From positions 1 to 36,988 of IMG/VR virus record IMGVR_UViG_3300025886_000078: a stretch of 36,988 nucleotides of DNA; one strand, given 5' to 3'. Source of the stretch: a virus. Every line of letters starts with the position of its first letter. Positions within the stretch are counted from its first letter, which is position 1. The position numbers and the translations under genes were made by a program. Shown piece after piece: positions 4,235 through 32,974 of this stretch. Under the pieces are notes generated by a model. That model was not told where the DNA came from. It did not search any database and saw only the letters and a list, made by a program, of their open reading frames with translations.

Positions 4235-4248
4235 CGCAATTAAATACA

Positions 4249-9885: not shown

Positions 9886-10073
9886 TGAAGGCTGTCAAGT
9901 ACAAAAAGGGCGGTAAGCTGAAAGTGCTTGACAAGAAAGTAAGTGTCAGCCCCCCAAAAGGGTATCACTGGATGGAAGAGTCTGGTAGGTATTACTTGAT
10001 GACTGGTGACTACAAGCCTCACCCTGGGGCTGTAGAAAAAGCAGTGTTTAAAACAGTGACTCATGAAGGCTAA
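9885..10073 (+). CDS. Small KGG-start protein of unknown function
   Basis: The ATG at 9885 overlaps the previous TAA (TAATG) and gives 62 residues. It begins MKAVKYKKGGKLKVL, sharing the MKA-K-YKKGGK start of its neighbours at 9058 and 10063, then continues SPPKGYHWMEESGRYYLMTGDYKPHPGAVEKAVF, with GYHWM...GRYYLM..D..PH being a distinctive central pattern. It resembles short 'HWM..GGYYLM.G....H.G' proteins that I recall beside head genes in aquatic phages. It overlaps the next gene by 11 bp. Function unknown. Confidence 0.65.
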   Translation: MKAVKYKKGGKLKVLDKKVSVSPPKGYHWMEESGRYYLMTGDYKPHPGAVEKAVFKTVTHEG

Positions 10074-15374: not shown

Positions 15375-16201
15375 TGTCGAGAAATTACATACCACTTAAT
15401 CAGGTAGTTAACGACTTCATAGTTACCCTGGACACAGACGACTACGTAAGCAACGCCCCAGACACCACCATTAGGAGCTTTGCTCTGCGTGGTATGCGTG
15501 AGATGGGGTTTGACATGCTGAAGGTGGTTAGGTCCTTGAAGATGCCTGTGTCAAGCAACAATACAATAGATCTTCCAGACGACTACGTGGACTGGAGTAA
15601 GGTAGGTGTGGTAGGTAATGACGGGCTGGTGTACGTACTTGGCGAGAACAAGAACCTCAACGTATCTCAGACATACGACTTAGACAGCAATGGAGACCCT
15701 CAGGACGCTAACAACGATGGGTTTTACGACAGGGTAGACTCTAAGTCATCTACCTCTAGTGGATCTCCTGCGTCTGACGCGGGTATCTCTGACGGAATGG
15801 AGTCGTACATCTTCCGAAACTTCGTTCATGAGAACAATCAAGGTAGGTTGTATGGTATTGGGGGTGGCAACTACTACGGGGAGTTCAGGGTAAATTTAGA
15901 TCAGAACAGGCTCGAACTCAAGAGCAACTCCAGTATCAGCGAAGTAGTCATTGAATACATTGCTGACGAGGCCAGGTCTGTAAACCCTAGGGTTCATATC
16001 TACGCAGAAGAGGCGTTGAGGTCTTTCATCTACTACAAGATGATCGAGCGCAAAGCTTCCGTACCTGCTAACGAGAAGGCTAGAGCTAGGCAAGAGTACT
16101 ACAACGAAAGGCGCAAGGCCAATGCTCGTATGAAGTCCTTCACGAAAGAAGAGTTGCTCAAGACTATTCGTAAGAACTTTAAGCAAGCACCTAAGCGCTA
16201 A
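15374..16201 (+). CDS. Head-tail connector-type protein 2 (tail tubular A/gp4-like)
   Basis: This 275-residue protein has helices at the start (TTIRSFALRGMREMGFDMLKVVRSLKMPV, about 30-58), then TIDLPDDYVDWSKVGVVGNDGLVYVL, a hallmark order of tail-tubular/adaptor proteins in podoviruses, a disordered serine-rich loop (about 121-140) and a C-terminal helical pair (VHIYAEEALRSFIYYKMIERK ... EYYNERRKANARMKSFT). It likely forms a ring between the portal side and the large hub protein. TGATG upstream and TAATG downstream imply tight translational coupling in a three-gene connector/hub unit. Confidence 0.65.
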   Translation: MSRNYIPLNQVVNDFIVTLDTDDYVSNAPDTTIRSFALRGMREMGFDMLKVVRSLKMPVSSNNTIDLPDDYVDWSKVGVVGNDGLVYVLGENKNLNVSQTYDLDSNGDPQDANNDGFYDRVDSKSSTSSGSPASDAGISDGMESYIFRNFVHENNQGRLYGIGGGNYYGEFRVNLDQNRLELKSNSSISEVVIEYIADEARSVNPRVHIYAEEALRSFIYYKMIERKASVPANEKARARQEYYNERRKANARMKSFTKEELLKTIRKNFKQAPKR

Positions 16202-19200
16202 TGGCTATTGATAAGACTATCCCGAACAGACTCCAAGCAGATGCTGATCAGAGGCTTGTACGCCCTGAAGTCGGGGAGATGCTGGACGCTCAGAACGTTA
16301 CCACGGCGGAAAGCGGAGGCAGTTCCTCTGGTGTCATCAAGAATGTCAGGGGTACTATTGCTGGCACCCCCCTTACTGCCACAGACAGGATAGAAGATGA
16401 CAACTCGGTAAGAGTCATTGGAAGCGTATCTGATTCTCAGCGTGGATTCGTATACTGGTTTGTTGCTGACGTAACTGGAAGCTCTCAAGACGCTATATAT
16501 CAGTACAATACATCAGACGATACTTATAGAGTGGTGTTAAAGGGATCTTTTTTGTCCTTCAATCATAATGGATTTATTAAAGCAGACTTAGTAAACGCTG
16601 CGTTTCAACAAGATGGAGTTATCCAAACTGCTTTATACTTTACTGATAATGTAAATCCCCCTAGAAAAATTAATGTAGACAGGGCTATATCTGGGGACTA
16701 CGCAGTTCTTGGTCAAGTTTCTGGTGACATAGATTTCTCTATACCTGTCATTAGAGCCTGTCTAACTATACCGCCTACGTTCTTTTTTGAAACAGACGAA
16801 AATTTTTCAATAAACAACTTTAGGGAGGATTCTTTTCAGTTTGCCATACAGTACATATACAAGGACGGGGAGGAGTCGGCGATATCTACTTATTCAAAAA
16901 TAGCAGTATCGAACTCAATAAAAGAGTCTGGGATTGTAGATGTGCTGTCCTCAACCAATGATGAGAACGTTTGTGTAATTGACACTAAGTGGGTGTCTGA
17001 AAACGAAAGAACGTACAAAACTGACGTAAAAAAGATAAGGATTCTGGGAAGGGTTAGGAATGGTAGCACTTTTTATATTATAGATGAGTTTGATCCAAAC
17101 TCTTCTGTTTCTAGAGAGTTTGATGGAGTCGACCTAAATGTTTACGACTCTACCCTCGGTCACTACAGATTTTATAACGAAGGGCTCTACTCTGTGGTTT
17201 CGTCAGACACAGTCAACAAGATTTATGATAACGTACCTCTTTTAGCTGCTGGTCAAGCAATGGCGGGAAATAGGTTGATGTACTCTAATTACACAGAAGG
17301 CAGAGAAAACAACCCTGTGTCTCCTAACTTGTCAGCTACTTACTCGTCAGATAATACTTCTGGAAGCTCCAGTTACCATGATCAATCTAACGCTGCTTCC
17401 GCTATTACAATCGCCCTTAATGCCTCTGACATAGATGACGGAAAAGTTATAGTTGACTTAACATCGACTGCTTTTACCTGGCCCTCTCCAAACAATCAGA
17501 CATCTACAGTACCAGACAATACCACCACAAAAATATCTTTTGATTACTTACTTTTTTCAGACGTATACAAGTCTGGAAGTGAGGTTCATACGGTTTCGTG
17601 TGTTAGTGATGGGGGAGGGTTTGACTTGGATTTTGGAACGGCAGCAAATAACAAATTTCCGATTAGACCAGCTGACTTATCTAGTAGTAACCCAAATCCT
17701 CTTTCAGTTAGCGCTACCTACACCACTTCTGGGTCGCAAGACGTAGAAGACATATCTGACGGGCTAAAAAGCTTGCTCGTTGACACTCAACACGAATCAT
17801 CTTGCATATACACAGTAACTTCTGTTTCTGCTAAAATATCTAACAGCACGGACTCATCATATCCTGACGGAGGCACGGTATTGGGGACCGTTAAGTTTAA
17901 GCTAGTGATGGGGTTTGATCAGATAACGGACGATACTGATGACGGGTTGTTTGTTATTAGCCCGTACATAAAAGAAGTAGAGGTCTTGTCTCACGACTTT
18001 TCTGCGGTCAATTCTATAACCAGCCAGTCAACAAACTCGTCTTTGCTTTCCACTCAGGCGACTTATGATGCTGATCCAACACAAACGTCAGGAACATACA
18101 TATCAAGCCCTTCTGTTTACTCTCAGTCTCCATCCCTCACTAGTTCTTTTAAGATGGGGAGCTCTCATGAATTTGGAATTGTTTATTACGACAAGTGGGG
18201 AAGAAGCGGGCTTGTAAATAAAGCGGGTAGTATATATGTGGATCACACTGCTGAAAGAACTAGTAATTACGGACCAGTATCAATAACTATGTCTTTCGGT
18301 TCTGGCGAGAACCCGCCCTCCTGGGCGGACTCGTGGCAACCCGTGTATAGGGGCATGTCTTCTTTTGATAATTTTACCACATACACTACTGGTGGGGGCT
18401 ATCCAATAAAAGAAAACGGTCACGCCACACTAATAGAGTCTGACCATAGAATATATGTTTCCTTAAACACTCTTGACATATACAACGAGGAACAAGGAGG
18501 GTTTAGGGATTACTCCTTTACGGAAGGGGATATACTCAGGGTAATATCTAGGAAAGAGGGAACATCAGGAACAGTTTATTACCCTTCGGCTAATGATGGT
18601 TCTCCGATAGAGTTTGAGGTTTTAGGTGTTGAAATACTTGGACCTGACACGAACGATGACCCCAATCCGCTTGTAGGAAATGACTCAGGCCATGGAAAAC
18701 ACTACACTGGAAAGTTTCTTGTTCTTCAAGCGCCAGATGTGGACGGAGGCAGGCAAGTTGACGCTACTGGGGATGGAACCGTTGATGATGACCTAAAGTA
18801 CAACGGCTTTGACTGGTTCTCTATTACTGGGAGCAACTATCCCAACGACCCTAACTCCACGACCGCAAACTACTGGGGTAACGAAACTGTAGTAGAGATA
18901 CTTTCTCCTAGAAGCACCACTTCTAATAACGTGTTTTACGAAATTGGAGAACGTCAAAAAGCAAACGTTTGGGCAATAGTACCTGGCAGGGTAGACACCC
19001 AGCACGGTCCCGCCTTAACGATTAGAGAAGGCGACGTCCACATGAGGGTTATTTCTTGTCAAACCCCTGTATACGATTCCTCCTGGAACACAGACTCAGA
19101 GACCCCAAAAGAAGATTGGGAGTATGCGAATAAAGTTATAGAGACAAGAACCCTAAGCGATAAACAGTCCGAAGTGTGCTGGTCAAGAGGAAGGCCTCAT

Positions 19201-20610
19201 ATACCTTTTGAAAATGCAGCAGAGGTAAATAGATACAACGGGATCACATACAGCGATGCCTATGCCGAGGACGTAGCTAACCTTTCACTATCATCATTCA
19301 ATCCTAGCCTCGCCAATTTCTTCAGCCTTGACTCAGCTAACGGGGCTTGCAACTATATCGGTACGTTTAGGGATGACTATCTTCTTGCTTTTCAAGAGAA
19401 TAGGGTTGCTAGGGTGCCAGTAGGGAAAGACATCATCACTTCTCCTACAACGAGCGGTATTGTGTCTCTTAGCACAAACGTACTTAACACACCTCAGTAC
19501 TATTCTGGTGACTTTGGTTGTGGTAATAACCCTGAGTCTGTTATTATCCGCGATGGCAATGCGTTCTTTGTAGACACATCAAGGAAAAAACTTGTCAGGC
19601 TTACTACAGAGGGCTTGTCTCCTATTTCAGAGGAGGGGGTAGACAACATGTTCAAGAGCAATCTTGATGCGTTTACAGCAGAAGGAGGTACTCGAATAGT
19701 AAGCGGGTATGACCCAGAGGACAATCAATATTATGTAACTCTTCGACAGATTCCTGACCCTAATAACGTAGGTCAATTTCTTTACGGCGGACTTACTTTG
19801 GGATACAGCGTTAGTGCAGGAGTATGGCAGAGCAGATATACATTCTATCCAGACATGTACTCAGACCAGAACGGTACAATGTACTCTGCGTACTACGTCC
19901 AGAACCCAGCGCTCGCCAATGATGCTGAGGTTTTTCACTCTCACACAAACGAAACAGACTACAATACATTCTACGGTACATTTAGTCCGTCAACACTAAA
20001 GGTTGTAAGTAATTTCAACCCAAGTATGGTTAAAGTGTTTAACGCTATATCCTTAGAGAATAGCGGAAGTGCGAGGTGGGCGGCTACTTCTGTTGTAACA
20101 GACCTTGGCGCGACTGGAAGTGTTGCTCTTAACACGTTTAGAGAATATGAAGGGTCTGACTACGCCTCAATACGCAGAGACTCTTCTTCTAATAGCACTA
20201 AGCACATAATTCCTATTGGACAGGTTACGTCATCAAACATAGGCACTGGCGAGATATCCTTTGTCAATAGGGTAAACACACTGCCTCTTATGTCGGGGGC
20301 TACTGTAATGCAAGTTGACGGGCTAGGAAATCTCACAGACATAGGCACTCCCCTCAACTCGGTACTTCAGCCCCGCACTCTCTCCTCGGTCACCGCTGTT
20401 AGAGAGATACAGATAAACTCTGGAACCTCAGTAGACCTTACTGGAGCGAACCTTGTACTTGTTACTGACCAGGCTCAAAATGGGGATCCCATACGAGGTC
20501 ACTGGGCAGAAATAACCTTAACTACTAATCAGGCCACACTATTTGAGCTGTATTGCGTAAACACACATTTTGTGCAATCCAAGCAAGATCACTCGTTAGG
20601 CCAGCAATAA
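16201..20610 (+). CDS. Giant tail hub / muzzle-type stabilisation protein
   Basis: This 1,469-residue protein is beta-rich almost throughout, with many S, T, D, N and Y and very few long helices. The N-terminus (MAIDKTIPNRLQADADQRLV... GEMLDAQNVTTAESG) is the type seen in P22 gp10/T7 gp12-like and crAss-like 'muzzle' proteins, which begin by recognising the connector ring and then form beta-propeller-like domains. Its position after two connector genes supports this. It would form the tip of the short tail, hold DNA in, and carry binding sites for fibres. Base composition shifts to more AT-rich codons over about 16,500-18,900 than in the connector genes, suggesting a module with a different history. 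Confidence 0.7.
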   Translation: MAIDKTIPNRLQADADQRLVRPEVGEMLDAQNVTTAESGGSSSGVIKNVRGTIAGTPLTATDRIEDDNSVRVIGSVSDSQRGFVYWFVADVTGSSQDAIYQYNTSDDTYRVVLKGSFLSFNHNGFIKADLVNAAFQQDGVIQTALYFTDNVNPPRKINVDRAISGDYAVLGQVSGDIDFSIPVIRACLTIPPTFFFETDENFSINNFREDSFQFAIQYIYKDGEESAISTYSKIAVSNSIKESGIVDVLSSTNDENVCVIDTKWVSENERTYKTDVKKIRILGRVRNGSTFYIIDEFDPNSSVSREFDGVDLNVYDSTLGHYRFYNEGLYSVVSSDTVNKIYDNVPLLAAGQAMAGNRLMYSNYTEGRENNPVSPNLSATYSSDNTSGSSSYHDQSNAASAITIALNASDIDDGKVIVDLTSTAFTWPSPNNQTSTVPDNTTTKISFDYLLFSDVYKSGSEVHTVSCVSDGGGFDLDFGTAANNKFPIRPADLSSSNPNPLSVSATYTTSGSQDVEDISDGLKSLLVDTQHESSCIYTVTSVSAKISNSTDSSYPDGGTVLGTVKFKLVMGFDQITDDTDDGLFVISPYIKEVEVLSHDFSAVNSITSQSTNSSLLSTQATYDADPTQTSGTYISSPSVYSQSPSLTSSFKMGSSHEFGIVYYDKWGRSGLVNKAGSIYVDHTAERTSNYGPVSITMSFGSGENPPSWADSWQPVYRGMSSFDNFTTYTTGGGYPIKENGHATLIESDHRIYVSLNTLDIYNEEQGGFRDYSFTEGDILRVISRKEGTSGTVYYPSANDGSPIEFEVLGVEILGPDTNDDPNPLVGNDSGHGKHYTGKFLVLQAPDVDGGRQVDATGDGTVDDDLKYNGFDWFSITGSNYPNDPNSTTANYWGNETVVEILSPRSTTSNNVFYEIGERQKANVWAIVPGRVDTQHGPALTIREGDVHMRVISCQTPVYDSSWNTDSETPKEDWEYANKVIETRTLSDKQSEVCWSRGRPHIPFENAAEVNRYNGITYSDAYAEDVANLSLSSFNPSLANFFSLDSANGACNYIGTFRDDYLLAFQENRVARVPVGKDIITSPTTSGIVSLSTNVLNTPQYYSGDFGCGNNPESVIIRDGNAFFVDTSRKKLVRLTTEGLSPISEEGVDNMFKSNLDAFTAEGGTRIVSGYDPEDNQYYVTLRQIPDPNNVGQFLYGGLTLGYSVSAGVWQSRYTFYPDMYSDQNGTMYSAYYVQNPALANDAEVFHSHTNETDYNTFYGTFSPSTLKVVSNFNPSMVKVFNAISLENSGSARWAATSVVTDLGATGSVALNTFREYEGSDYASIRRDSSSNSTKHIIPIGQVTSSNIGTGEISFVNRVNTLPLMSGATVMQVDGLGNLTDIGTPLNSVLQPRTLSSVTAVREIQINSGTSVDLTGANLVLVTDQAQNGDPIRGHWAEITLTTNQATLFELYCVNTHFVQSKQDHSLGQQ

Positions 20611-20623: not shown

Positions 20624-21607
20624 ATGCCAGTACCAGCTATTGTACCTTTTTTGCCACTAATAGGCCAGGCAGTGGGCCAAGGGATCTCAGCTCTTGGTGG
20701 AGCTAGAGCAGCCAAAAGAGAAGGTGAATTCTACGGAGACCTCCAGACATCTGGAGAGGCTCAAGCCAGAGAGCTAGAAAGAAAGAGATCAGGAATGTAT
20801 GGCATGGGGCCAACGATGCGTAAGTACATGCAGTACGCCATGCAAGATCCCACTGCTGACCTTCAAAGGCAAGAAGCGCTGCGGCAGTCTGGTACGGCTG
20901 TAGGAGCGTTAAAGTCTGGCGGAGCTAGAGCTATTCTTGGGGGGCTTGGAGCGCAACAGCAACAGGCCGCCTCTAACATGGCTCAAATTGGAGCTGATGA
21001 GTACGCAAGGATGACTGGGGCTATGAAGGGTGTCGGTCAGATGGAGGAGCGCCTTAGACAAGAACAAAGGGGAGACATAGGGGCTGACCTTATTTCAGCT
21101 AGACAGCAAGCAGCGACAGGTATGGCAGGCGCCTTTATGGCCGACCAGAGGAGGAGAGCAATAGGCACAGAAGCCTTAGCAGGACTTGCTGGAATTGCTG
21201 GTCAAGCAGCAGGAATGGCGTTTGCAGATCCAAGCTCTGCGAGCGTCAATGGTGCGCAAGGTAGCTCTAGCGGAACGGGAATCGGATTTGGTGGCGGCGG
21301 AATGGGAAGTGGTGGAGGAAGCGGAATGGGGTCCCTAGGGGGTGAATTAAACTTTGACGGCACCTTAAATCTTGACGGAAATCCATCTACTGGAAATGGG
21401 GCCGCTCAAGGAACGAAAGTTAAAAGGACTCCAGGTATATTTTCACATAGAAAAAATCCTATCGATGTCATGCAAGGGGGCGCAAAGATTGGTGAACTTA
21501 CTGGAGGTGAGTACGTACTTAACCCTGAGCAGGCAAAGAAGATAGCCAATCAAAGCAAGTATGCTAAGATGCTGTTCCGCAAATTTGACAAACAACAACC
21601 CGCATAA
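20624..21607 (+). CDS. Probable internal virion (ejection) protein with GGEYVLNP tail
   Basis: This 327-residue protein has a hydrophobic N-terminal segment (PVPAIVPFLPLIGQAVGQGISALGG, about 2-26), a helical alanine/glutamine/methionine-rich body to about residue 200, a glycine/serine-rich flexible stretch (about 210-245), and a compact end with IGELTGGEYVLNPEQAKKIANQS (about 289-311). The 'GE.TGGEYV.NP.QA..I' pattern occurs at the ends of internal or tape-measure-type proteins in many phages in my recollection. The shape fits a membrane-interacting ejection protein that helps DNA cross the cell envelope. It overlaps the next start as TAATG. Confidence 0.6.
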   Translation: MPVPAIVPFLPLIGQAVGQGISALGGARAAKREGEFYGDLQTSGEAQARELERKRSGMYGMGPTMRKYMQYAMQDPTADLQRQEALRQSGTAVGALKSGGARAILGGLGAQQQQAASNMAQIGADEYARMTGAMKGVGQMEERLRQEQRGDIGADLISARQQAATGMAGAFMADQRRRAIGTEALAGLAGIAGQAAGMAFADPSSASVNGAQGSSSGTGIGFGGGGMGSGGGSGMGSLGGELNFDGTLNLDGNPSTGNGAAQGTKVKRTPGIFSHRKNPIDVMQGGAKIGELTGGEYVLNPEQAKKIANQSKYAKMLFRKFDKQQPA

Positions 21608-22899
21608 TGCTATACGGATCAGTTAACGTAACGCCAAAGCAAGAGGTTCCTAAATATTTTGAGAATATTTCTAAGGAGCTCAATCAAATGCAGGTTCTCA
21701 AGGAGGCTGAAAAAGCTCAAGGGGAAGCTGCTAAAGCTGGTATGAGTTCCGTGCCGCTGGTGTCTTCGGCGGTTATGTTTGACTCTCATGCAAAAGCATG
21801 GCAGAAAGCAGCCCAACAGCTCAAGCAGGACAAGAATCAGTACATGGAAACTGCTGAGGGTAGGGAGGAGTACTCAAGGCTCTTGACGGAACTAGAGTTT
21901 GGCATTAAGGAGTCCCAGTCCTATTTCAAGGAGGCGAGCCCAGTCCTAGAGAGAAACCTAAACATCGCCAGATCTGGTCAGAACTTTGAGGCTTGGGAGC
22001 GGATGGGAATGAAAGACGGCCACGACAAAGGGTACTATGAGGGGGTGCTCAACGACTTAGATTCCGACAAGTTTGATGTCAGGATAGAAGATGGTCACTT
22101 CGTACTGGATGATGGTTCAGGAGCTAAAAGAGTGGAGGATCCTGGCCTGATGGACTTCTCTATTGTCAAGGAGGACTTAACGATGGCAGACCCAGTACAA
22201 CCTGATGACTGGTGGGTTAGGTCTCACGACGATAGGATGTACGAAGACAGGAGTGAAGCGAAGAAGTGGACTAGAGCAACAGTAGGACAGACTCAGAGAG
22301 GTAACCTAGACGTAGCTAGGTGGTATGTAGGCGAGGGTTTGGCGCCAGAAGGCATGACTGCTGAGGAGGTAGCAAATACAGAAGGCAGACTTAACGAGGC
22401 TCTAGATGCTTACGCAGAGGCGGCAGTACCAGAAGGGTGGGCTAAAGAAGACCCTAGTCAAAGGAACAAGCAGCCTACAGCAGAAGAAAAAAAGAAGAAA
22501 AGGTTTGATAATAGCCTAGGTCAAATAATTCCTATTACAAGCCCTAACGCGGTGGCACCCCCACCTGCTTTTCCTGGGGGCAATATTCCACCGATACCCC
22601 CAGACGGAGGGCAATACAACTTCCCCTCACAGGATTACGTCACGGTAAGCACTTCTAACTGGGGAGACGAAGCTATTAGAGACAGTAACAATAAGATTCA
22701 AAACGTATCTATTACTGGGATAAAATATGATGCAAATGAGGCTACAGGAGAAGGCCTTGCTCTTATGACGAACGCTGGAGAGATTACCTTAATCCCAGGA
22801 ACCCCTGTGTACGAAAGCGTTAAAATAAGCATCGATAGATCCGAAGGTGACGGGGCTTTTGATAAGATTGTAAGCGCCATCCATGACACTGCGCAATAA
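21607..22899 (+). CDS. Probable internal virion protein, unknown function
   Basis: This 430-residue protein starts on a TAATG overlap. The N-terminal 130 residues are helical (FENISKELNQMQVLKEAEKAQGEAAK...), the middle is acidic and tryptophan-rich (DDWWVRSHDDRMYEDRSEAKKW), a proline-rich linker (PPPAFPGGNIPPIPPDGG, about 320-337) follows, and the last 90 residues look like a small beta domain ending in a helix. No enzymatic motif is seen. Position between the preceding ejection-type protein and the giant protein suggests it belongs to the internal core or tail assembly. Confidence 0.55.
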   Translation: MLYGSVNVTPKQEVPKYFENISKELNQMQVLKEAEKAQGEAAKAGMSSVPLVSSAVMFDSHAKAWQKAAQQLKQDKNQYMETAEGREEYSRLLTELEFGIKESQSYFKEASPVLERNLNIARSGQNFEAWERMGMKDGHDKGYYEGVLNDLDSDKFDVRIEDGHFVLDDGSGAKRVEDPGLMDFSIVKEDLTMADPVQPDDWWVRSHDDRMYEDRSEAKKWTRATVGQTQRGNLDVARWYVGEGLAPEGMTAEEVANTEGRLNEALDAYAEAAVPEGWAKEDPSQRNKQPTAEEKKKKRFDNSLGQIIPITSPNAVAPPPAFPGGNIPPIPPDGGQYNFPSQDYVTVSTSNWGDEAIRDSNNKIQNVSITGIKYDANEATGEGLALMTNAGEITLIPGTPVYESVKISIDRSEGDGAFDKIVSAIHDTAQ

Positions 22900-22938: not shown

Positions 22939-25900
22939 ATGGAAGAAGATTACAACAGTATCATTGAGGACTTTAGAGCGAGAGGAAAATCTGATCAATA
23001 CATAGCTAACTTTCTTGTTTACAACCCTAAGTATAAGTTAGACATAAATACGGCGAATGCCCTTCTAAACATAGACTCAAAAAAAAAAGAAGAGGAAGGC
23101 CCGTTTACTCTTTCTTCATCCATCTCTTCGGATATCGTCTTGGCTTCTCCTTCGGAGTTGACAGAGAGGACGCAAAACCCCATATCTAAGGCTTTATCCC
23201 CTTCTATTAAAGAAGAAGAGCTTGACCCACAGATCAAGCAATGGAGAAACTACAACATCTCCGAAGGGCTTCATGGTGACGTAAACATGTACGACAATGA
23301 AGACATGCAGAGCGCGTATGTTACTGATGCTGTTGATTGGTCTTTAGAAAATAACGTTTTTGAGGAGAGTTTTAGTAGGGAAGACCTGCTTGGCGGTGAC
23401 AACCAGTCTGAAATGACTGATGATCAGGCCAGTAACATTAGGTCTGCTATGTCTGCTTATGATGAGTTCCTAAAAGAAAGAGGTGAAAGAAGTGTTACTG
23501 ACGATCAGATTTCCGAGAGAGAGAAAGATGCAAAAACACTATCTATAATAAAAACATACAACAAGCGTATGGAGAGTGACTTTAAGTCAACCCATGCGGA
23601 TATGTTGTCTCAAAACCCAGAGTATAAAAGGGCCATAGAAGAGGCAGAGTCTAAGTACAAAAGCGGTGAGCTCACTAAGAGCGGATATCAAACCGAAACA
23701 AGTAGAGCTTTTCAAATTCACGCTGAAGACCACTGGAAACAGAGGTTTAACGATTACACATCTGAAATTTTAGAATCTCTTCCAGAAGAGCTCAGAGAAG
23801 ACAGAGGATTTCTTGAAGACCTGTCTGAAGATATTTACGAGAAGTCAAACAGGAGGCTCAGAATAGACCTTGATGGAGACAACGTATATAACGAAGGTAT
23901 TCCTGTCCTGAGTCAAGTAGCGGACATGTTTCTAGGAGCCGCAGCTACAACGGTAGACGTAGTTGGTCCTACCATGGCCTTATTTTTAGGGTCAGGGGGG
24001 CTTAGTCCGCAGATGCAATCTGCGATGCGGAGGCAGGCGTATGATGCCTCTAAAGAACTTTCAGAATACCTCAGAAGCAATGTAACAGACTACCAGGATT
24101 TTGAGCACCTGTCTATAGACGAAGGCGAGAATATATTCAACCACCTCGCGCATCAAGTCGGTGACGTTTCCCGCCTTGTAGGTGACATGATTCCTTACGC
24201 TGGGCTTGCCATGACTGGTCCTGTAGGGCTCGGTGTGTTGGGGGCAACTGGGGCTGTTAATACGTTTTCTGAAAGCTACTATTCAGATGTAGATAGAGTT
24301 CGGGAAGGTCTTGACCCTATTTTTGATCCCGACAGCAGCCTCGACAATGGAGCCAGGTTTGCTATGAGTGCGGCTGTGGGCGCAATTCAGTCATACGGAG
24401 GTAGGATACTGGGTGGTATTGGAGCAAGGGTTGTTGGTCAAGCTGGAACAAACGCACTAACGAATAGTATAGTAAGAGGTTTAATGGGCGGCGCAGGAAA
24501 GACCGCCACAAAGTCAAGGGCCCTTAAAGCATACCTTCTTGCTCAAGGTATCGACGCCTTTGGAGAAGGATTTGAAGAGGTCGTAGAAAACTCTGTACAA
24601 AGGGCGATTGAGGCTGGTATTGGAGATAGTGATATAACTTGGAATGAGTTTGTCGCTGAAACAGAATATGCCTTTGCCGAGGGCTTTAAGGGCGCTGCTG
24701 GTATGGGCGGAGGCGGATTGGCGCTAGGTAAAGGTAGAAGGGCTGGTCAGAGTATACTAGACGGAGATGTATCTCTTATTACGGGACCTCAAGCTGCCAC
24801 CAATTCAGTAGCAGACCCAAGTTCATCCGAAGTGGAAGTAGAAGGCGAGGCTCCTATTGTAGAAGGAGTAGACAAAGAGTCTTACGAGAAGACCTCAGGG
24901 GAGATTGAAAAACATAGACGTGACAACGAGAGAAGGTACAGAGTTATTAAACTGAGATACCCTGAGGCTTTCGATAAGATAGCTAGAATGGACGCCCTAC
25001 TTGCCAGCAAAGCAAACAAAGCAGGGGCGATTTTCTCTAAGTATAGTGAGGGGGATGCTGTTTCAGAGGAGGACCAACAAGCGTTGGCTCAAATAGAAAA
25101 GGAATACAAGGCCCTGATAGAACAAAGAGCTAAGTTCTACAACTCTTTTAAGGGGGAGTCTCTTGAGCTTACAGGTCAGGAAGCCAAGAATATAGACAAG
25201 GCCAGGATCAACAGGAAGGTCAAAGACGTTGATGACGAGATCAGCCTCTTGGAAGAGACAGTCGCGGAACAAGACGAATTAGCGGGCACAACATCTGCTG
25301 ACCCTGACGCTAGGGCAAAAGCAGCTATGGAGCTAGAGAAGGCTAAGGAAAAGAGGGAGAAAGTACAGCAGCTTTCTAACGACATAGACAAGGCTAACGA
25401 TGACATTGCTAGTGCTGCTGATCAGATGGGAGGGGAAGCAAGCGAAGGAGCGGCAGCTGAGATGAAAGCAGCTGAAGAAAGTAAAGCTAAACTTGAGCAA
25501 GAGCTACTTGACTACCTGGGAATCAAGGGAGAAGGCCTTGGGGTCAATCCCAACTTAGGGGCAGAAGAACAGACTGAAGCACCGAAACAAGAGGGTAGGA
25601 AAGCTCAAGTTGAGAGTCACTCTAAAAATGGAGGAAGTACTTTCTCCTTGGATGGTCAAAATCTGTCAGGTCAACCAAAAGCTAGTGTCAGCATATTCCC
25701 TGAAAGAACCAAGCTGGTAGACGGCGAGACCGTGACTGAAGAGGACATTGAGTCTTTCGTGGAGGAAAACAAAGACTTATTCGAAGGAAATGAAGACGTG
25801 CTCACTGTGGGGACTTGGTTTGATTCAGAGTCAGGTAAGACCTATATAGACGTTATAACTGTCGTAGACAAGAAGTCAGCTTCGGAGCTAGGCAGGCAGT

Positions 25901-28900
25901 ACAATCAAAAGGCTGTTTGGGACTTAGAATTCAACAGAGAAATTGATACTGGAGGTGATGGAGAAGCTCAGGCTGACGCTAAGCCTGAAGCGGAAAGAGT
26001 TTCTGATATAAGATCTATACTGGGTGCAGAAGCAGAGACACAAGCAGAAGCAGAGACACAAGCACAGACTGAAACAAAAACAGAAGAGAAGCCTTCAGAG
26101 ACAGAAAGGAACAAAAAGGACAGGGGTATAAAAGGTCAATTCGCGGATCACGTAGCGAATAAAGACGGGACGTTTGGAATTATAGCCAAAGGAGCCCTCA
26201 CAAAGCGTATGGCCAGGTTCCTGAACAGTAAAATAACCAGGACTGTAGCCAACCTTATTTCTCAAGGAAAGGCCATCTCCATCCGAGTTCACGATACTGC
26301 TGAGTCTGGCAACTTTGCTGATGGCACAGGAGAAAATAGAGTTAATGGATTCTACACGGAAAGATCAGGGGGTGAGGTTGTAATACACGTAAACCCAGCT
26401 CTCATAACAGAGCTAATGGAAACTCAAGGCAAGACCTTTGAGTCGGTAGTGCTTGAGGAGTTGATGCACGCTACAGTGGGTGCAAATCTTAACTCTCTTT
26501 ACCTCAAAGACAAGGTTGCTGCAGAGAAGATGCTCGATGAGCTCTACAGGATCGCGGACCCAGAAGTTGCGGAACAAGCGAAACAAAAAAGAAAAGCCTA
26601 CAAAGAATCTTACAAGAAGGATAGTAAGTTAACAGAAGATGAGGTTGATGCCATCGCCTTTGAGGAGGCTGCTCTAGAGGTAGGGGCTGAAATGTCTAGA
26701 AGTCTCAACAAGGCAGAACTAAAGGCTAAAGAGAATATCCTTGACAAGATCAGGGTAATATTCAACCAGATGTATAGGACCTTGGGCGCCCCTAAGGAGT
26801 TTGTTATTAAGGATGTAGCGAGTGCAGAGCAGTTGGTGCAAGCTATGGGGATGATCCATAAGTACGGGGCTGGCGTTAGTATTGACCAGAGACTGGGAAG
26901 CAAAACAGACTCAGAGAGGGCTTCTTACAGCGGAAAGAGCAGGGTAAAAGTAATGTCGCTTCCAGAGGAAGGGGCGTTTACAGTGCAGTACCATCAACCC
27001 GTATATGGAAGAGGCCCAGAGTCTGGATTGCAAGTAGACTCCAGGTTCAGGTCCCAAGAATTTAACGGAAAGTGGCATTTTATTAACTGGTGGAAGCGCT
27101 CAACAAGGATGGGGCAACTTCCCTACGGGGGGTGGACTATTGATCTAGGGGACGGCTCACAGCCGTTTGATGTCGACGCCATGAAAAAGTGGAAAATGTC
27201 CGCTCCTAAAAAAAGAAAGACGGCAGAAGAAAAGAGAAAAGAAGAAATCAAGTTCTGGCAGGGTGAGTCCGCTGCCCTCTACTCCGTGTTCAAGAACAAC
27301 ATAGACTCAAAGAACTTTAACGGTGTAAGAAGTGCGAAAACACGTGAAGCAGCAGAGGGGTTGTTTGGAAAGGAGGAAGTGCAAAGAAGAATCGATATGG
27401 TTGGTTCAGTCCGCGCAGGATTCTCAGAAACTCATTACACATCAGAAGAGCTTGCTCAGATTAGACTAAAGGTAGAGGAAAGCCTCGGCTTGCGCAAACC
27501 AGAGGATGGGGACGACTTGATGGTAGAGAGAGCCGCGCTGGTCAACATCTCGGAAGAGTCTCACGCAAAGAAAGAGCCTATTTCAAGGGCTGAGGAGATC
27601 GGTAAACTAGCAAAAAGAATTGTTTGTGGTGGTGTCGCATTCGAGTGCAACATATCTAGGTCAGGTATGATTCGAAACGACCTCATGAATCAGATAGCAA
27701 AGAACGTGTCAGGTTCAGAAAGAACCCCGTCTAACATAGCTGCTGACATATTGCCTGTAGTACAATACCACTTAGGGGACAGACTAAAAAGAACTGGTAG
27801 AGACATACGTAAAATAGACGAGGAGATAAGAGGGGTTTATGATGAGGTGTCTAACTTCATGGAGGAGGTTCATGGGGACATACTGCCAGAAAATCACAAG
27901 GATCACTTTGGTGTTTTTGTTGGCATCCTTTCAATTACATCTAACGGAGCTACGGCTGAGAGAAACCTTGAGGTAGCGATTAGAATCTACGACTCTTATA
28001 TCTACGGTATTTCTCAAGGGAACAGCCCAAAAAATGCTGTAAGTAAAGCCGTATTGGATGGCATTGAGCAGGCTAATCCAGAGATAATCATCAGTGAAGG
28101 CAGCATAAACAAGCAGAGGGCAGGAGCGATTAGGACTTCTCTTGAGAGACTGTTCGCTGATGCTGATAAGTACTTTGTAGACGGAAAATTTGACTCTGAC
28201 AAGATGTCCGCTAGGTACGGAAGAAAAGCACCAAGAAAGTCAGGGCCTCAAGCCAGATACATTCTGGGGACTTCCGACGCAGCTAAGACAGGAGAGCACG
28301 CCGCTGGAATGATGGGGGCAGGGCAGCACGCTTTCTTGGAGACAGAAAGATGGGTGCGTAGGTTCATGCACGTGTTCCAAGGTAAGTTCGTCCCCCTGTC
28401 TGGAGATACGTTGATCAATCAAGACGCCATAAAAGCCGCTGAGTCTCTTGCTGAGGAAGCTGGAGTTACTGAGCAGGAAATGAAAGAGGGCTTTAAGCAG
28501 TACGGTGTTTCTCCAGATAGCTACGGATACAATCACCCAGGAGCCAGGGCTATAGTAGCCATGAAGGCTATAAGAAAGAGAGGTAAGGGAGGTTACAATA
28601 ACAGAGCCTCTAAAGCTATGTGGACCTTGATGGGAAGGGACAGCATATTTGATGATGGCGGATCTAACCTTAATGTCAGCGATGCTCTTTCAAGGGCCAC
28701 CATGAAGAAGCTCGTCGATATGCTCAACAACACTATCACAGAGGGTGAGCCTAAGTGGAATGCGTACTCCGTTCAGCAAACCATCTGGGAGATTATGCAA
28801 GAAGAGATGGGGGCATACAGAGATGGAGAATACGCCTTAAGTTCTTACGCAGATCTGGCTCCATCTGTACTGGAAGAGATGAGAGAGATTGAGTTTGGAG

Positions 28901-31900
28901 ACGCTGACCTCATGATAGATATGGGAGAAGGCGACATGGTTAGAGCCGCTGACAATTCAGGAGACCTCACTATTGAAAGAGCCTCTATGTTGTTCGACCC
29001 TGTCGATCTCGGACCAGGAAAGGACGTTGTAAACTCTACAGAGTCGCCGCTGTACAGGGCTAGGGATATAGGAGAGGTAGGGATGGTGAAGGTCAATGCG
29101 GATTCATACAAGGCTATGACCGATAAGATGGTGTCTGAAGCACTGAGCTCTGATAAGCGTTCCGTCCAGATAATGAACGAAAGGAACGAAATTGAAGAAG
29201 GCAGGAAGGTTGCGGTAAGGCTGAATCTAAACGTAAAGAAAAACACAGGGGTACCAGTACAGACTGTTCACGACAAATCCGCTACAGGAAAGGCCTTGAG
29301 GTACTCAGGGGCTGTGACCTTGAAGAATGTAGAGCTGGCTGTAAATCAATCTGCCAGAGAAAAGATCGTTACTTTCCAAGACAACAAGTTCCCTATGGCT
29401 GCTGTTCAAGGAGAGTTTGTTTCAGATGGCGTAGCAAACAGCGACCTGGACGGAGTGAAGGCTACGTTTAACCCATTCAGGGAACATCTATTTGTAGACG
29501 CTTCTGGTAGAGCCATCAAGTCTGCGGAGGAAGCCACGGTAATTGGTAATACCGTATTGCTCAGGGGTAAGATCGAGTACTTTAACATGAACGACCCCAT
29601 CCTTCAAAGAGGTAAGGTTGAGTCGCCTAAAGGAAAAGCCAAGAGGGTTCTTAGGGGGGACAAGTATGAGCAGTCACTAAAAAGGTTTAAGGCTTATGCA
29701 GAGGGCGCTCTGGGTATGGAGTTTAAGAATAGGATGGAACTTGAGCTTGCTTACGATGGTATGCAAGTAGGATCTAAGGTTGCTCTTGCTGAGTCTGAAG
29801 TGGCAGAAAACATGTCTGACGCAAGGGAGAGGGCTAATATCTCTGGGTATATCAAGAACAAGAACATGAGGCAGACGGCTAGGAAGCAAGCCCAAAACTT
29901 CTTGAATACCACTAGAGAGGCGATCATACAGAACCCAGAGAACTACATATCTCCTCAGAACATAGGTAAGATTAAGAGCCGCCTACAAGACGTTACCGAC
30001 CAAGAGCTTGTTGAGTTCCTTACAGACGAGTCTGTCGGTCGCCTGTCTCAGAAGAACGACGACATCGGGGTTCTGGCGGGGTCGGAGATGATTCGAAGGG
30101 CTGTGGCCAGAGGAGAGACGGAAAGGATTCCCTCTATAGTTGCTGAGCTGGCTGCTGTAGGAACTACTGCGGGTAGGATACTTCGCCACTTCAGGGAACT
30201 TAAATCCAGCTCCCCAGAAGGGCTTGCTAGTATAATCGAAGCGGCAGTAACCAACAACGGCAATTCACTATCTGAGTCACAGAAAGCTGAGCTTCAGAAA
30301 GTTACGTCAGACCTGTTCTCTCAACAAGCTAGGGTTGAGGACCTTATGAGGAGGGCTGTAGGAGGAGAAGAAGTCGATGCTGAACTCAAGGAAGCTATTG
30401 AAGCCATGAAGATCACGGAGCGAAAACTAGACAGCTTCGCCAACAAGTACATAGAGAAGGACTGGGGCACGCTGTTTGGACAGCTTGTTCAGGGGAACCT
30501 ACTCACTACTATGTCTCAGGTGTTCAACGTAGCGGCTAATATGGTTAACGCCGTTGGTCACGTCGCTGTCGATTTAGTCTCGCTTCCGTTTGAAGCAGCT
30601 ATGGTTAAGATTGGAAATGCTATGGGCAAAGACATAGAGTCCAGAAGGAGAGCGAGCTTGATGGCCTATATGTATGGCATAAGAAAGTTTGGGAGGGGCT
30701 TTGTTGAGGCCGCAGATCAGGTTGTAACGGGACAAGATCAAGAGCTTTCTGAGTGGAGGGTTACACGGGGGTTGGCTCCGTTTAGGTCTCTCAAGGCTGC
30801 TTTCCAAAAGGACTTGCCGCTAGGTCCTGACGGGCAAGGCAGCCTAAGTCAGAGGTCTAAGCTGTTCGTTCAAGGAACTCTTGGTATTCCAGCAGAAACT
30901 ATGTTTAGGTTGCTATCTCTTGGTGACATCCCATTTAGAAGGTTTGCAGAAGGCATCGACCTTTACCAGAGCGGCAAAGAGATGGGGCTGGAAGGAGAAG
31001 CTCTGCAGAGGTTCTTGAAGTATCCTACTAGGTCAGAGCTTGAAAGGGCTCAGAGAGAGGGTCGTAGGCTTACTTTCCAGGAGGAAACAGCAGCAAGTCA
31101 AAACGTATCCGCCATAGTCAATTCCCTAGAAGGTATTGTAGCTAGAGGAGTTGAAGCTATAGGTATTGACGGTACCAGCTTCGCTAAAGCCTTGTTCAAG
31201 GTTATTCTTCCTTTCCGATCTACGCCAGCTAACATCTTGTACGAGACCTTCACTTGGGTTAACCCTTATGTTGGAACCGTGAGGATGGCCTCACAGCTTA
31301 GAAGGGGTGAGGTAGAGGAAAGCTCTAAGACCCTGGCTAAGATGATGTTAGGTTCTGTGACAATGGAGGCCGCATTGATGATGATTAGTGAGGGTATTAT
31401 TTCTGGGCCTGTTAAGTGGGATGAGGACGAGGAAAAGAATATGGCTTATGACATCTTCCCTCCAAGCAGTATAAACGTTTCTGCTTTGAGAAGGCTGATA
31501 GAAGGAGGGGATTCTGCTCACCAAACTGACGACTACTTCATAAGGTATGACAAGCTCGGAATGATAGGCGCGATCATGTCTACTGCAGTCCAATCTGTTG
31601 ATACTGAATCTCTTAGAGAGAGGGAATATAACTCACCTATGCAGTTTGCAAGCCACACGCTTTCCGACTTCTTTGGTGCTGGCTCTATGTCTGCAATATC
31701 TGCCATGATGGAACAGAGCTTTGTTCAAGGTCTGAATGGATTCCTCAAGGTATTGATAGGAGACAATGTCGAAAGGGACCTAGAGAACTTCTTGACTACG
31801 ATGTTCAAGGCTGGCAGTGCCGCTGTACTGCCCAATCAACTTAACGCCTTCTACAGGGCTGAGAGAACCTATCTTCCAGACAGTAGGGTTACAAAAGAGG

Positions 31901-32541
31901 TAGGTGAACAAGGGGGTGTTATGGGATTAGCTGAAAGGCTGGCTAAGAAGTTTGAATACACGATCAAAGACAGAACATTTGGCCTCGCTGATTACCCTGT
32001 AAGGATAAACTGGAAAGGAGAGAAAATAGAACAGACTCCAAGAGGGGCTACTGGAATAGGCTATCAACTGTTTGATGTAACCAAGTCTATGCAGGGTAGT
32101 GCGGATCCTCTCTCAAATGAAATCTGGAGGCTGTACGAGCAGACAGAAGATATGACTTCATTATGCGGAACACCTTCATATGCTTCGACCAGGAAGCTTA
32201 GCGTGCCCAACATAACTTCAAAGAAGGACATCAAGATGGTGAGAGACCTTGGAAGAGGGTATACATGGATAAACGACGAGGAGTTCATGGCGGAAAGAAT
32301 ATACCTCTCTACAGAGCAGATAAACGAGCTGATGCAAGTATCTGGAAGGGCGAGGTATGAAGAAGCTATGAAAGTTGTCCAGACTAAAAAGTACAAGGAA
32401 GCTAACGATCAAGACAAGGTTGAGATGCTAAACGAAGTGGCCGACGAATTCAACAGCGCAAAAGAGTATGGCCCGAACGGGTACAGGAGACATACTGTTC
32501 TTTTGTTTGACGTAATACAGAAGATCTACGATGCCAGATAA
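22939..32541 (+). CDS. 3,200-residue polyvalent-type protein, probably ejected with the DNA
   Basis: This single frame covers 9.6 kb. In order one sees: a helical N-terminus; two hydrophobic, glycine/alanine-rich segments (about 323-353 and 413-443) that could insert in a membrane; FGEGFEEVVENSVQRA (about 541-556), typical of large polyvalent proteins; a charged coiled-coil region (about 645-855); a disordered glutamate/glutamine/threonine-rich linker (about 1025-1060) with an 18-bp tandem repeat; a degenerate zincin-like site, EELMH (1173-1177) with a downstream AFEEAALEVGAEM (from about 1240); several unassigned globular parts (about 1340-2300); and a helical C-terminus with hydrophobic stretches near 2513-2564 and 2799-2825 and the pattern LLSLGDIPFRRFAEG. 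Known analogues are T7 gp16-like and polyvalent proteins carried in the capsid. No lysozyme motif was recognised. Confidence 0.72.
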   Translation: MEEDYNSIIEDFRARGKSDQYIANFLVYNPKYKLDINTANALLNIDSKKKEEEGPFTLSSSISSDIVLASPSELTERTQNPISKALSPSIKEEELDPQIKQWRNYNISEGLHGDVNMYDNEDMQSAYVTDAVDWSLENNVFEESFSREDLLGGDNQSEMTDDQASNIRSAMSAYDEFLKERGERSVTDDQISEREKDAKTLSIIKTYNKRMESDFKSTHADMLSQNPEYKRAIEEAESKYKSGELTKSGYQTETSRAFQIHAEDHWKQRFNDYTSEILESLPEELREDRGFLEDLSEDIYEKSNRRLRIDLDGDNVYNEGIPVLSQVADMFLGAAATTVDVVGPTMALFLGSGGLSPQMQSAMRRQAYDASKELSEYLRSNVTDYQDFEHLSIDEGENIFNHLAHQVGDVSRLVGDMIPYAGLAMTGPVGLGVLGATGAVNTFSESYYSDVDRVREGLDPIFDPDSSLDNGARFAMSAAVGAIQSYGGRILGGIGARVVGQAGTNALTNSIVRGLMGGAGKTATKSRALKAYLLAQGIDAFGEGFEEVVENSVQRAIEAGIGDSDITWNEFVAETEYAFAEGFKGAAGMGGGGLALGKGRRAGQSILDGDVSLITGPQAATNSVADPSSSEVEVEGEAPIVEGVDKESYEKTSGEIEKHRRDNERRYRVIKLRYPEAFDKIARMDALLASKANKAGAIFSKYSEGDAVSEEDQQALAQIEKEYKALIEQRAKFYNSFKGESLELTGQEAKNIDKARINRKVKDVDDEISLLEETVAEQDELAGTTSADPDARAKAAMELEKAKEKREKVQQLSNDIDKANDDIASAADQMGGEASEGAAAEMKAAEESKAKLEQELLDYLGIKGEGLGVNPNLGAEEQTEAPKQEGRKAQVESHSKNGGSTFSLDGQNLSGQPKASVSIFPERTKLVDGETVTEEDIESFVEENKDLFEGNEDVLTVGTWFDSESGKTYIDVITVVDKKSASELGRQYNQKAVWDLEFNREIDTGGDGEAQADAKPEAERVSDIRSILGAEAETQAEAETQAQTETKTEEKPSETERNKKDRGIKGQFADHVANKDGTFGIIAKGALTKRMARFLNSKITRTVANLISQGKAISIRVHDTAESGNFADGTGENRVNGFYTERSGGEVVIHVNPALITELMETQGKTFESVVLEELMHATVGANLNSLYLKDKVAAEKMLDELYRIADPEVAEQAKQKRKAYKESYKKDSKLTEDEVDAIAFEEAALEVGAEMSRSLNKAELKAKENILDKIRVIFNQMYRTLGAPKEFVIKDVASAEQLVQAMGMIHKYGAGVSIDQRLGSKTDSERASYSGKSRVKVMSLPEEGAFTVQYHQPVYGRGPESGLQVDSRFRSQEFNGKWHFINWWKRSTRMGQLPYGGWTIDLGDGSQPFDVDAMKKWKMSAPKKRKTAEEKRKEEIKFWQGESAALYSVFKNNIDSKNFNGVRSAKTREAAEGLFGKEEVQRRIDMVGSVRAGFSETHYTSEELAQIRLKVEESLGLRKPEDGDDLMVERAALVNISEESHAKKEPISRAEEIGKLAKRIVCGGVAFECNISRSGMIRNDLMNQIAKNVSGSERTPSNIAADILPVVQYHLGDRLKRTGRDIRKIDEEIRGVYDEVSNFMEEVHGDILPENHKDHFGVFVGILSITSNGATAERNLEVAIRIYDSYIYGISQGNSPKNAVSKAVLDGIEQANPEIIISEGSINKQRAGAIRTSLERLFADADKYFVDGKFDSDKMSARYGRKAPRKSGPQARYILGTSDAAKTGEHAAGMMGAGQHAFLETERWVRRFMHVFQGKFVPLSGDTLINQDAIKAAESLAEEAGVTEQEMKEGFKQYGVSPDSYGYNHPGARAIVAMKAIRKRGKGGYNNRASKAMWTLMGRDSIFDDGGSNLNVSDALSRATMKKLVDMLNNTITEGEPKWNAYSVQQTIWEIMQEEMGAYRDGEYALSSYADLAPSVLEEMREIEFGDADLMIDMGEGDMVRAADNSGDLTIERASMLFDPVDLGPGKDVVNSTESPLYRARDIGEVGMVKVNADSYKAMTDKMVSEALSSDKRSVQIMNERNEIEEGRKVAVRLNLNVKKNTGVPVQTVHDKSATGKALRYSGAVTLKNVELAVNQSAREKIVTFQDNKFPMAAVQGEFVSDGVANSDLDGVKATFNPFREHLFVDASGRAIKSAEEATVIGNTVLLRGKIEYFNMNDPILQRGKVESPKGKAKRVLRGDKYEQSLKRFKAYAEGALGMEFKNRMELELAYDGMQVGSKVALAESEVAENMSDARERANISGYIKNKNMRQTARKQAQNFLNTTREAIIQNPENYISPQNIGKIKSRLQDVTDQELVEFLTDESVGRLSQKNDDIGVLAGSEMIRRAVARGETERIPSIVAELAAVGTTAGRILRHFRELKSSSPEGLASIIEAAVTNNGNSLSESQKAELQKVTSDLFSQQARVEDLMRRAVGGEEVDAELKEAIEAMKITERKLDSFANKYIEKDWGTLFGQLVQGNLLTTMSQVFNVAANMVNAVGHVAVDLVSLPFEAAMVKIGNAMGKDIESRRRASLMAYMYGIRKFGRGFVEAADQVVTGQDQELSEWRVTRGLAPFRSLKAAFQKDLPLGPDGQGSLSQRSKLFVQGTLGIPAETMFRLLSLGDIPFRRFAEGIDLYQSGKEMGLEGEALQRFLKYPTRSELERAQREGRRLTFQEETAASQNVSAIVNSLEGIVARGVEAIGIDGTSFAKALFKVILPFRSTPANILYETFTWVNPYVGTVRMASQLRRGEVEESSKTLAKMMLGSVTMEAALMMISEGIISGPVKWDEDEEKNMAYDIFPPSSINVSALRRLIEGGDSAHQTDDYFIRYDKLGMIGAIMSTAVQSVDTESLREREYNSPMQFASHTLSDFFGAGSMSAISAMMEQSFVQGLNGFLKVLIGDNVERDLENFLTTMFKAGSAAVLPNQLNAFYRAERTYLPDSRVTKEVGEQGGVMGLAERLAKKFEYTIKDRTFGLADYPVRINWKGEKIEQTPRGATGIGYQLFDVTKSMQGSADPLSNEIWRLYEQTEDMTSLCGTPSYASTRKLSVPNITSKKDIKMVRDLGRGYTWINDEEFMAERIYLSTEQINELMQVSGRARYEEAMKVVQTKKYKEANDQDKVEMLNEVADEFNSAKEYGPNGYRRHTVLLFDVIQKIYDAR
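26026..26061 (+). repeat. 18-bp perfect tandem repeat (two copies) in the giant gene
   Basis: GCAGAAGCAGAGACACAA occurs twice in tandem (26026-26043, 26044-26061), followed by a partial third unit. It encodes AEAETQ repeats in a disordered linker. As 18 is a multiple of three, copy number can vary without breaking the frame. Confidence 0.85.
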
Positions 32542-32974
32542 GAAGTTCAAAGACACTAAGGTCGGGAAGTGGGTAAAAGAAAAACTGCCTGAGGTGGCAG
32601 GAAACTTTGCCGACATAATTCCTGATCAAGGTGTCTTGGGCATTGTAAAGCGTGTGGTGGACGGTTCTCCAGAGTTGTCTGCTCAGGATAAACTTGAGTT
32701 CGACAGGTTGGCTGTAGAGGCTGAAAGGGACGCACAGGAGAATGTAACGAGACGATGGGAAGCTGACTCTAAGTCAGACGTAAAGCTGGCTAAGTTTATT
32801 CGCCCTGCGATACTCATTTCTTTGACGCTGTTCTATATGGTCGTAACAGTATGGGACGGACTTAGCCCTTCGTTCATGCCACCAGAGAACTACATTAACC
32901 TACTGGAGATTCTGATGCTTACGGTATTCGGAGCGTACTTCGCAGGAAGGACAATAGAAAAGGTCAAAAAGTAA
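32531..32974 (+). CDS. Holin of the 3TM/GTA-holin type
   Basis: This 147-residue protein overlaps the giant gene by 11 bp. After a soluble charged part with a long helix (QDKLEFDRLAVEAERDAQENVTRRWEADSKSDV, about 52-84), it has two membrane spans, FIRPAILISLTLFYMVVTVWDGL (89-111) and INLLEILMLTVFGAYFAGRTIEK (122-144). The order 'W.AD..SD..L.K.IRP..L......F.........P......LLE.L...VFGAYF.GR..EK' matches what I recall of the holin_3TM family (GTA_holin_3TM). Holins permeabilise the inner membrane at a set time and let the endolysin out. No endolysin gene is recognisable next to it. Confidence 0.75.
   Translation: MPDKKFKDTKVGKWVKEKLPEVAGNFADIIPDQGVLGIVKRVVDGSPELSAQDKLEFDRLAVEAERDAQENVTRRWEADSKSDVKLAKFIRPAILISLTLFYMVVTVWDGLSPSFMPPENYINLLEILMLTVFGAYFAGRTIEKVKK

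Follow-up and report, generated by a model that had tools for sequence, protein, structure and literature searches.

The 3200-residue protein encoded in the analysed DNA is very probably a virion protein of the polyvalent type, from a phage resembling phi38:1 and elemo, and we infer that it most likely belongs to the cargo ejected into the host. The window, i.e. the whole stretch of 36,988 bases that was analysed, is a linear IMG/VR record, in which the giant ORF was called on the + strand from the ATG at 22939 to the stop at 32541 and is backed by a family alignment. As the initial annotation had pointed out, this single uninterrupted 9.6-kb frame accounts for 9603 of the 36988 bases in the window, or about one quarter; it is not a product of chance, because complete homologues of 2975-3284 aa are encoded in other viral contigs. 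The interpretation as a packaged and ejected protein is based on the synteny with the muzzle gene, the homology to phi38:1 and elemo proteins, the polyvalent-type C-terminus, the zincin-like domain, the exchange of modules in one slot and the scarcity of cysteine. The same observations, including the N4-like character of the zincin domain, favour the earlier proposal of an ejected effector; against it stand the weakness of the supposed membrane segments and the fact that the two best-understood sites deviate in the window, which has EExxH in the zincin-like domain and Gly instead of the SAM-lyase Glu in the slot.

Family and genomic setting

Scans of IMG/VR retrieved 11 loci with the C-terminus as query and 26 loci with an alignment of the C-terminal part, and 24 further IMG/VR proteins were used as relatives; two homologues are incomplete, L037 because its 5' end is open and L033 because it is truncated by the end of its contig. 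All site and slot counts refer to 25 rows, from which the C-terminal fragment L006 and the short L016 were left out, and the loci L017-L023, L029 and L032, which share contigs with other loci, were counted once. These rows include the near-copies L024/L025/L037, L026/L035, L031/L034 and L027/L039 and therefore represent fewer than 25 independent lineages; alignments A3, A4 and A5 were built without L025, L034, L037 and L039. Per block of 50 residues, identity to the window protein amounts to 41-77% in the C-terminal third (from about residue 2100) and 11-46% elsewhere. Among phages, a near-identity DNA search gave no match, and tblastn found no match for residues 1-1600 and one weak L5-gp82 match for the remaining half; the PDB, searched with the profile of a 10-row family alignment, also returned no match. 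A C-terminal relative with 37% identity (L042), unused in the counts, is located on contig DNHN01000168.1, which is binned as a Bacteroidetes MAG and provides a weak hint on the host phylum.

The window phage is a phi38:1/elemo-type (crAss-adjacent) podovirus. Its TerL, portal and several virion genes match virion families, and the portal is about 30% identical to the portals of Cellulophaga phi38:1-type and Flavobacterium elemo phages. The gene for the muzzle (tail-tip) protein of 1469 aa (16201..20610, +; PF25729 crAss_MUZ_C, phrog_14478) is followed by genes for a 327-aa protein (20624..21607, +), a 430-aa protein (21607..22899, +) and then the giant. The 327-aa family is homologous to phi38:1 gp099 (E 1e-14) and elemoE gp20 (E 6e-12), which are recorded as 'virion structural protein'; the 430-aa family, the second member of a putative ejection trio, gave no significant match among the neighbour genes of phi38:1, elemo and MW202828. 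The giant is the last large gene of the structural module, and apart from one 147-aa ORF the + block then ends. In crAss001, the muzzle gp44 is followed by the cargo proteins gp45 and gp46 and the RNAP-type gp47, gp49 and gp50, all five of which were detected in virions by MS, as described in PMC10172136. The window giant likewise lies 3' of the muzzle gene and inside the virion block.

Among cultured phages, the family profile recognizes elemoE gp18 (E 4e-18) and phi38:1 gp101 (E 1e-14), both recorded as 'structural protein', a label that is similarity-based in the phi38:1 record. The MW202828 giant is marginally related: the profile scores it at E 3, and the best BLASTP match, obtained with a single row, has E 2e-9. 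All three occupy the same genome position as the window giant. In the main text of a 2026 proteomics paper on phi38:1, 'gp101' is unmentioned.

Some further features were recorded along the window. The 147-aa ORF (32531-32974, +) shares its first 11 bases with the 3' end of the giant gene and contains a strongly hydrophobic stretch (Kyte-Doolittle 1.96 at residue 89), which makes it a candidate for a holin- or membrane-type protein, and a 630-aa ORF adjoining the virion block (33079-34971, -) carries domains of a B12-dependent (class II) ribonucleotide reductase. A short ORF within the virion block (10063-10533, +) begins with DLTGDGKVTRADVLKG, which we take to resemble a dockerin/EF-hand calcium loop, and a lone tRNA-Arg(TCT) is found at 4163-4235 (+), just 5' of the terminase gene.

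Terminal modules and cysteine content

The N-terminal module comprises residues 1-880 (22939..25578, +), as delimited by hmmsearch matches to residues 33-816 of phi38:1 gp101 and 130-920 of elemoE gp18. The membrane segments assigned to this part by the initial annotation could not be confirmed. When Kyte-Doolittle hydropathy was calculated over the whole giant, none of the 19-residue windows averaged 1.5 or more and the highest value, 1.47, was obtained at residue 332; the regions near residues 332-350 and 422-440 are weakly to moderately hydrophobic, Gly/Ala-rich stretches. The coiled coil that it also proposed fared better, in that residues 640-880 are rich in charges (33-39% K+R+E+D per 100 aa) and, judged from this composition, the segment is probably coiled.

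Cysteine is scarce in the whole family. The giant contains three Cys in 3200 residues and the proteins of the two genes directly before it contain none; 52 Cys were counted in the 78,846 residues of 26 family sequences, one fragment included (0.066%), and the numbers are 0/1691 in phi38:1 gp101, 0/3694 in elemoE gp18 and 1/3859 in the MW202828 giant. In the window and its relatives, the gene directly 5' of the giant is Cys-free in 24/24 cases and the next one in 22 of 23. The Cys content of the window TerL, portal and muzzle is 0.61-0.72%, and at a base rate of 0.66%, a rough choice taken from these three proteins, three or fewer Cys in 3200 residues correspond to a Poisson P of about 1e-6. 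The scarcity agrees with threading of the giant through a channel, of which it is no proof.

The conserved C-terminal module includes residues 2065-3200 (29131..32538, +), as defined by the alignment and by BFVD matches to polyvalent proteins. It begins near a Phage_L5_gp82 domain (PF25735/phrog_586; residues 2085-2205, 29191..29553, +), which scores over the cutoff, is present in 22/22 members and occurs elsewhere in mycobacteriophages and Bacillus phages, in small proteins annotated as hypothetical. At E<=0.001, the structural model of the C-terminus matched 42 BFVD entries, with a top match of 1e-12 over about 1000 columns; nine of these entries carry polyvalent or PolyVal in their names, each with a probability of 0.99-1.00. 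The model agrees with the helical C-terminus postulated earlier, and among the matches listed for it by VIA those to helical structures prevail (best Z 7.8); its mean pLDDT is 59, hence these fold results have to be read with caution. In NCBIfam searches of the C-terminus no family was found in more than two of 22 members.

Central domains and the exchangeable slot

Motif scans and alignments revealed an exchangeable slot that follows the charged segment and precedes the zincin-like domain (residues 884-1008, 25588..25962, +), and which in the window is filled by a type II module with the motifs G-T-W ... G-K-T ... N-Q-K-A-V. By the motif scan, 11 of the 25 rows including the window carry type II, four carry type I (DUF3293/SAM-lyase-like), four the phrog_2563-type and six none of these. 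The pair L009 and L010 demonstrates a clean exchange, because the flanking blocks are 94, 95, 89 and 97% identical and the slots, with 36% identity, hold different modules. When plotted on the C-terminus tree, the slot states require seven changes, compared with a possible minimum of three and an average of 12.7 for shuffled labels, hence they are also clustered by descent. The third module type has phrog_2563 (function unknown; E 1e-8) as its sole match; a 'GNAT-like' assignment suggested by a sequence pattern was dropped after Pfam and PDB searches gave no confirmation.

The type I modules of L015, L028, L036, L040 and elemoE keep the motifs G-x-Y, E-x-S and Q-[ED], and the motif order is the same in T3 SAMase. 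For the Svi3-3 SAM lyase, the use of G56, Y58, E69, S71, Q104 and E105 has been described (PMC7877911). The slot of elemoE passes two Pfam thresholds, with 29.8 bits against 28 for PF23780 and 52.1 against 25 for PF11697, and thus combines the gathering score of the SAM-lyase family PF23780 with the four conserved residues (G-x-Y, E-x-S, Q-E), while the slots of L028 and L036 score 25.3 and 22.5 bits, below the PF23780 cutoff. The tblastn matches of the type I module comprise 68 records from Flavobacterium (elemo) phages as well as a single Myxococcus phage. Alignment of the type I slot with T3 SAMase by hhalign was not significant (prob 2.7%), the SAM-lyase-like profile A7 had two PDB matches, neither of them a SAM lyase, and our literature search found no paper mentioning DUF3293. 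The comparison of type I with type II gave an hhalign probability of 4.9%, and type II matched DUF3293 with E 0.14, so the link between both types is confined to motif order and topology. In the motif alignment with Svi3-3, the window slot keeps Gly56 and Gln104, has Trp for Tyr58 and Gly for Glu69; the type II slot was not accepted as SAM lyase, given the loss of the critical Glu and the weak ties to type I. The giant of a cultured Flavobacterium phage, elemoE gp18, combines a SAM-lyase-family domain (L003 22779-23081) with a canonical HEIFH zincin.

The zincin-like domain (residues 1065-1304, 26131..26850, +) overlays residues 2130-2363 of N4 vRNAP gp50 with 187 aligned residues at an rmsd of 6.0 and a low VIA Z of 5.6; the metallopeptidase domain of N4 vRNAP has been placed at 2130-2448 by Iyer et al. 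(PMC5512222). The region is also homologous to residues 1487-1662 of elemoE gp18 (hhalign 95.7%, E 9e-9), where the corresponding site is a canonical HEIFH at 1543. In the window family the site reads E-E-x-x-H (E1173-H1177, 26455..26469, +) in 25/25 rows, i.e. it is a degenerate HExxH as the initial annotation had recognized. E1173, E1174, H1177, E1243 and E1247 are present in 25/25 rows and H1150 in 22/25. Judged from the alignments, the first His is changed to Glu throughout the family, and the site is altered yet held fixed. Zincin metallopeptidases are recognized by HExxH plus a downstream Glu; the family has the downstream glutamates E1243/E1247 in all 25 rows and EExxH in place of HExxH, and the domain was not filed as a peptidase. 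The MW202828 giant (L005 741-12320) contains HEFGH twice, at residues 1615 and 2500, possibly representing two zincin domains.

A small beta/alpha segment with the motif FNGKWHFINWWKR (residues ~1346-1425, 26974..27213, +), supported by alignments and by strands in the model, lies between the zincin-like and the glycosylase-like domain. It is strongly conserved in nearly all relatives, and a family search with residues ~1346-1425 gave no family.

The following region, residues 1594-1967 (27718..28839, +), probably adopts an HhH-GPD fold, as suggested by model comparison. Its top two matches among 989 aligned chains were 7ou3 and 1xg7 with 213 and 195 residues, respectively, at a VIA Z of 7.7, which like the 5.6 of the zincin-like region is a middling value, since unrelated models can reach Z 7-8 by chance; conversely, the absence of a family from the VIA matches does not exclude it. 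Both structures are AGOG 8-oxoguanine glycosylases, and the 1xg7 sequence is named N-glycosylase/DNA lyase. The alignment of residues 1560-2000 (25 rows, 658 columns) contains only four invariant positions, S1668, N1676, K1783 and Q1947. K1783 (28285..28287, +), the sole invariant Lys, is the candidate catalytic Lys, and E1803 (28345..28347, +) marks the candidate position of the catalytic Asp, because no other column is acidic in every row (18 of the 25 rows have Asp here, seven have Glu). The acid is part of a D-x-H string in 16/25 rows, which, we presume, recalls endonuclease III. Spacings of 18-20 or 30-31 residues separate K1783 and the acid; for comparison, PMC9638937 gives K249/D268 as the catalytic pair of hOGG1 and K140/D172 as that of Pae-AGOG. 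The 18 Asp rows thus present Lys and Asp at HhH-GPD-type spacing, while the window itself, like its whole clade of seven rows, has Glu for Asp (K1783/E1803). Searched against the PDB, the domain profile hit 1xg7 with a non-significant E of 0.77, below Old yellow enzyme with E 0.027. In Pfam at E<=10, no zincin or HhH-GPD match was found for 21 members among the matches listed (25/31 families). In the fold searches, which the initial annotation had recommended, VIA gave the AGOG and N4 vRNAP matches, and Foldseek against the PDB gave zero matches at E<=0.001 for both models. The region around residues 1340-2300, which according to the initial annotation could hold novel enzymatic domains, does contain an enzyme-like domain, the putative HhH-GPD-like one (Z 7.7). 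That the window's own protein is an active glycosylase is rather less likely than not.

Proposed role, alternatives and comparison with known systems

In our model the virion would carry the giant as cargo and, when infection begins, drive it by way of portal and tail into the host cell. The N-terminal 880 residues and the two small upstream proteins could serve packaging or docking and the passage of the envelope. The giant would cross the narrow channel partly unfolded, as has been modelled for the ejected crAss001 cargo (PMC10172136), and this would suit a chain of 3200 residues with three cysteines. Inside the cell, the middle part may act as effector region with its lineage-specific slot module, the EExxH zincin-like domain and the HhH-GPD-type glycosylase-like domain, and the conserved C-terminal third might form a backbone common to many phage polyvalent proteins. 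The likely purpose would be to shield the incoming DNA from host defences and to act on host macromolecules.

The strongest challenge to this model is the view that the giant is a structural ejection or tape-like protein, e.g. a channel component like T7 gp16, with enzyme-like domains that are inactive scaffold remnants. We regard this as unlikely on balance, although the change from HExxH to EExxH in 25/25 rows, the replacement of the slot Glu by Gly in the window, the Glu for Asp at 1803 in its clade, and the fast divergence of the N-terminal two thirds next to a conserved C-terminal third all point in its direction. However, E1173, E1174, H1177, E1243, E1247 and K1783 are invariant and position 1803 is always acidic in regions where the mean column identity is 26-28%, hence the altered sites are not drifting. 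Moreover, the wholesale exchange of slots between near-identical relatives would be expected for working effectors. A conventional tail protein (fibre, tape measure or tail tip) devoid of an effector role would also be large, helical and encoded in the structural module, and the homologues are indeed recorded as 'structural protein'. This explanation is improbable, because the window already contains muzzle, portal and other structural genes, the 50 BFVD matches listed include polyvalent proteins and none named fibre, the tape-measure match is weak (1/22 members, E 0.004), and the giant has enzyme-like domains and an exchangeable slot.

Giant ejected proteins are also known as virion RNA polymerases, such as crAss001 gp47/gp50 or N4 gp50. 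The zincin region matches that of N4 vRNAP, in which it is likewise fused to the giant chain, the gene lies 3' of the muzzle and cargo genes, and the window protein contains one D-x-D-G-D string at residue 310. Nevertheless, a polymerase is very improbable and was rejected, since D.DGD is found in only three of 26 family sequences (window, L007 and L030), within the weakly conserved N-terminal part, and the fold searches revealed no polymerase core among the matches listed. The model of the T7-type RNAP (PF00940) matched none of six relative records, nor any control, and is uninformative here.

Going beyond the preferred reading as ejected polyvalent protein, we can only tentatively suggest that the giant is an injected chassis of zincin, DNA-glycosylase-like and C-terminal parts with a swappable counter-defence slot. 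In the elemo phages and some relatives, the slot would then deliver a ready-made SAM (or SAM-AMP) lyase, which might disarm restriction, BREX or SAM-AMP CRISPR signalling before phage genes are read. The HhH-GPD domain could in the same scenario be an injected glycosylase/lyase whose substrates would be modified or damaged bases, either in the host DNA or in the DNA that enters. In the titles and abstract beginnings covered by our literature search, no glycosylase or SAM lyase was described in a polyvalent or virion protein, and the main text of PMC5512222 does not contain 'glycosylase', 'lyase' or 'base excision' and uses 'HhH' a single time, on a different subject. Most giant virion proteins of crAss-adjacent phages bear no label beyond 'structural'. 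Should the slot and the glycosylase-like domain function in the proposed way, the phage would bring finished counter-defence enzymes along with its DNA, and the swapping of single modules would let one ask directly with which host defence each lineage has to cope. Since the SAM-lyase-like slot of the cultured elemo phages scores over the Pfam cutoff, the slot idea is open to testing in a laboratory strain. The EExxH zincin of all relatives beside the HEIFH form of elemo also raises the question of the role of the altered site.

In comparison with known systems, elemoE gp18 (3694 aa) shares with the window giant the gene position, the N-terminal part, the place of the slot and a homologous zincin; it differs by the canonical HEIFH and by a slot that is SAM-lyase-like and exceeds the Pfam cutoff, and a match to the C-terminal third of the window was not detected. 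With phi38:1 gp101 (1691 aa) the position and about 800 homologous N-terminal residues are shared, but gp101 is half as long and has no [HE]ExxH string. The likeness to crAss001 gp45-gp50 is one of gene order and proposed ejection: these genes lie 3' of the muzzle and partly unfolded ejection has been proposed for their products, whereas the cargo described in PMC10172136 includes an RNA polymerase. Similarly, N4 vRNAP gp50 is a packaged giant with a metallopeptidase-like domain (PMC5512222), which the zincin-like region of the window overlays with Z 5.6, but no polymerase domain was detected in the window giant. AGOG and other HhH-GPD glycosylases provide the best fold match (Z 7.7) and a comparable Lys-acid spacing, in contrast to the non-significant sequence matches and the Glu instead of Asp in the window clade. 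The SAM lyases T3 SAMase and Svi3-3 share G-x-Y, E-x-S and Q-[ED] with the type I slots, while the window slot lacks the equivalent of Glu69. Finally, the phage polyvalent proteins described by Iyer et al. in 2017 (PMC5512222) differ from the window giant in its EExxH zincin site; like it, they are very large, are encoded beside virion genes and unite disparate domains, commonly including a zincin-like peptidase. The window giant correspondingly joins zincin-like, HhH-GPD-like, slot and L5_gp82 domains in one chain and shares, according to the BFVD matches of a C-terminal model with a pLDDT of 59, its C-terminal part with known polyvalent proteins.
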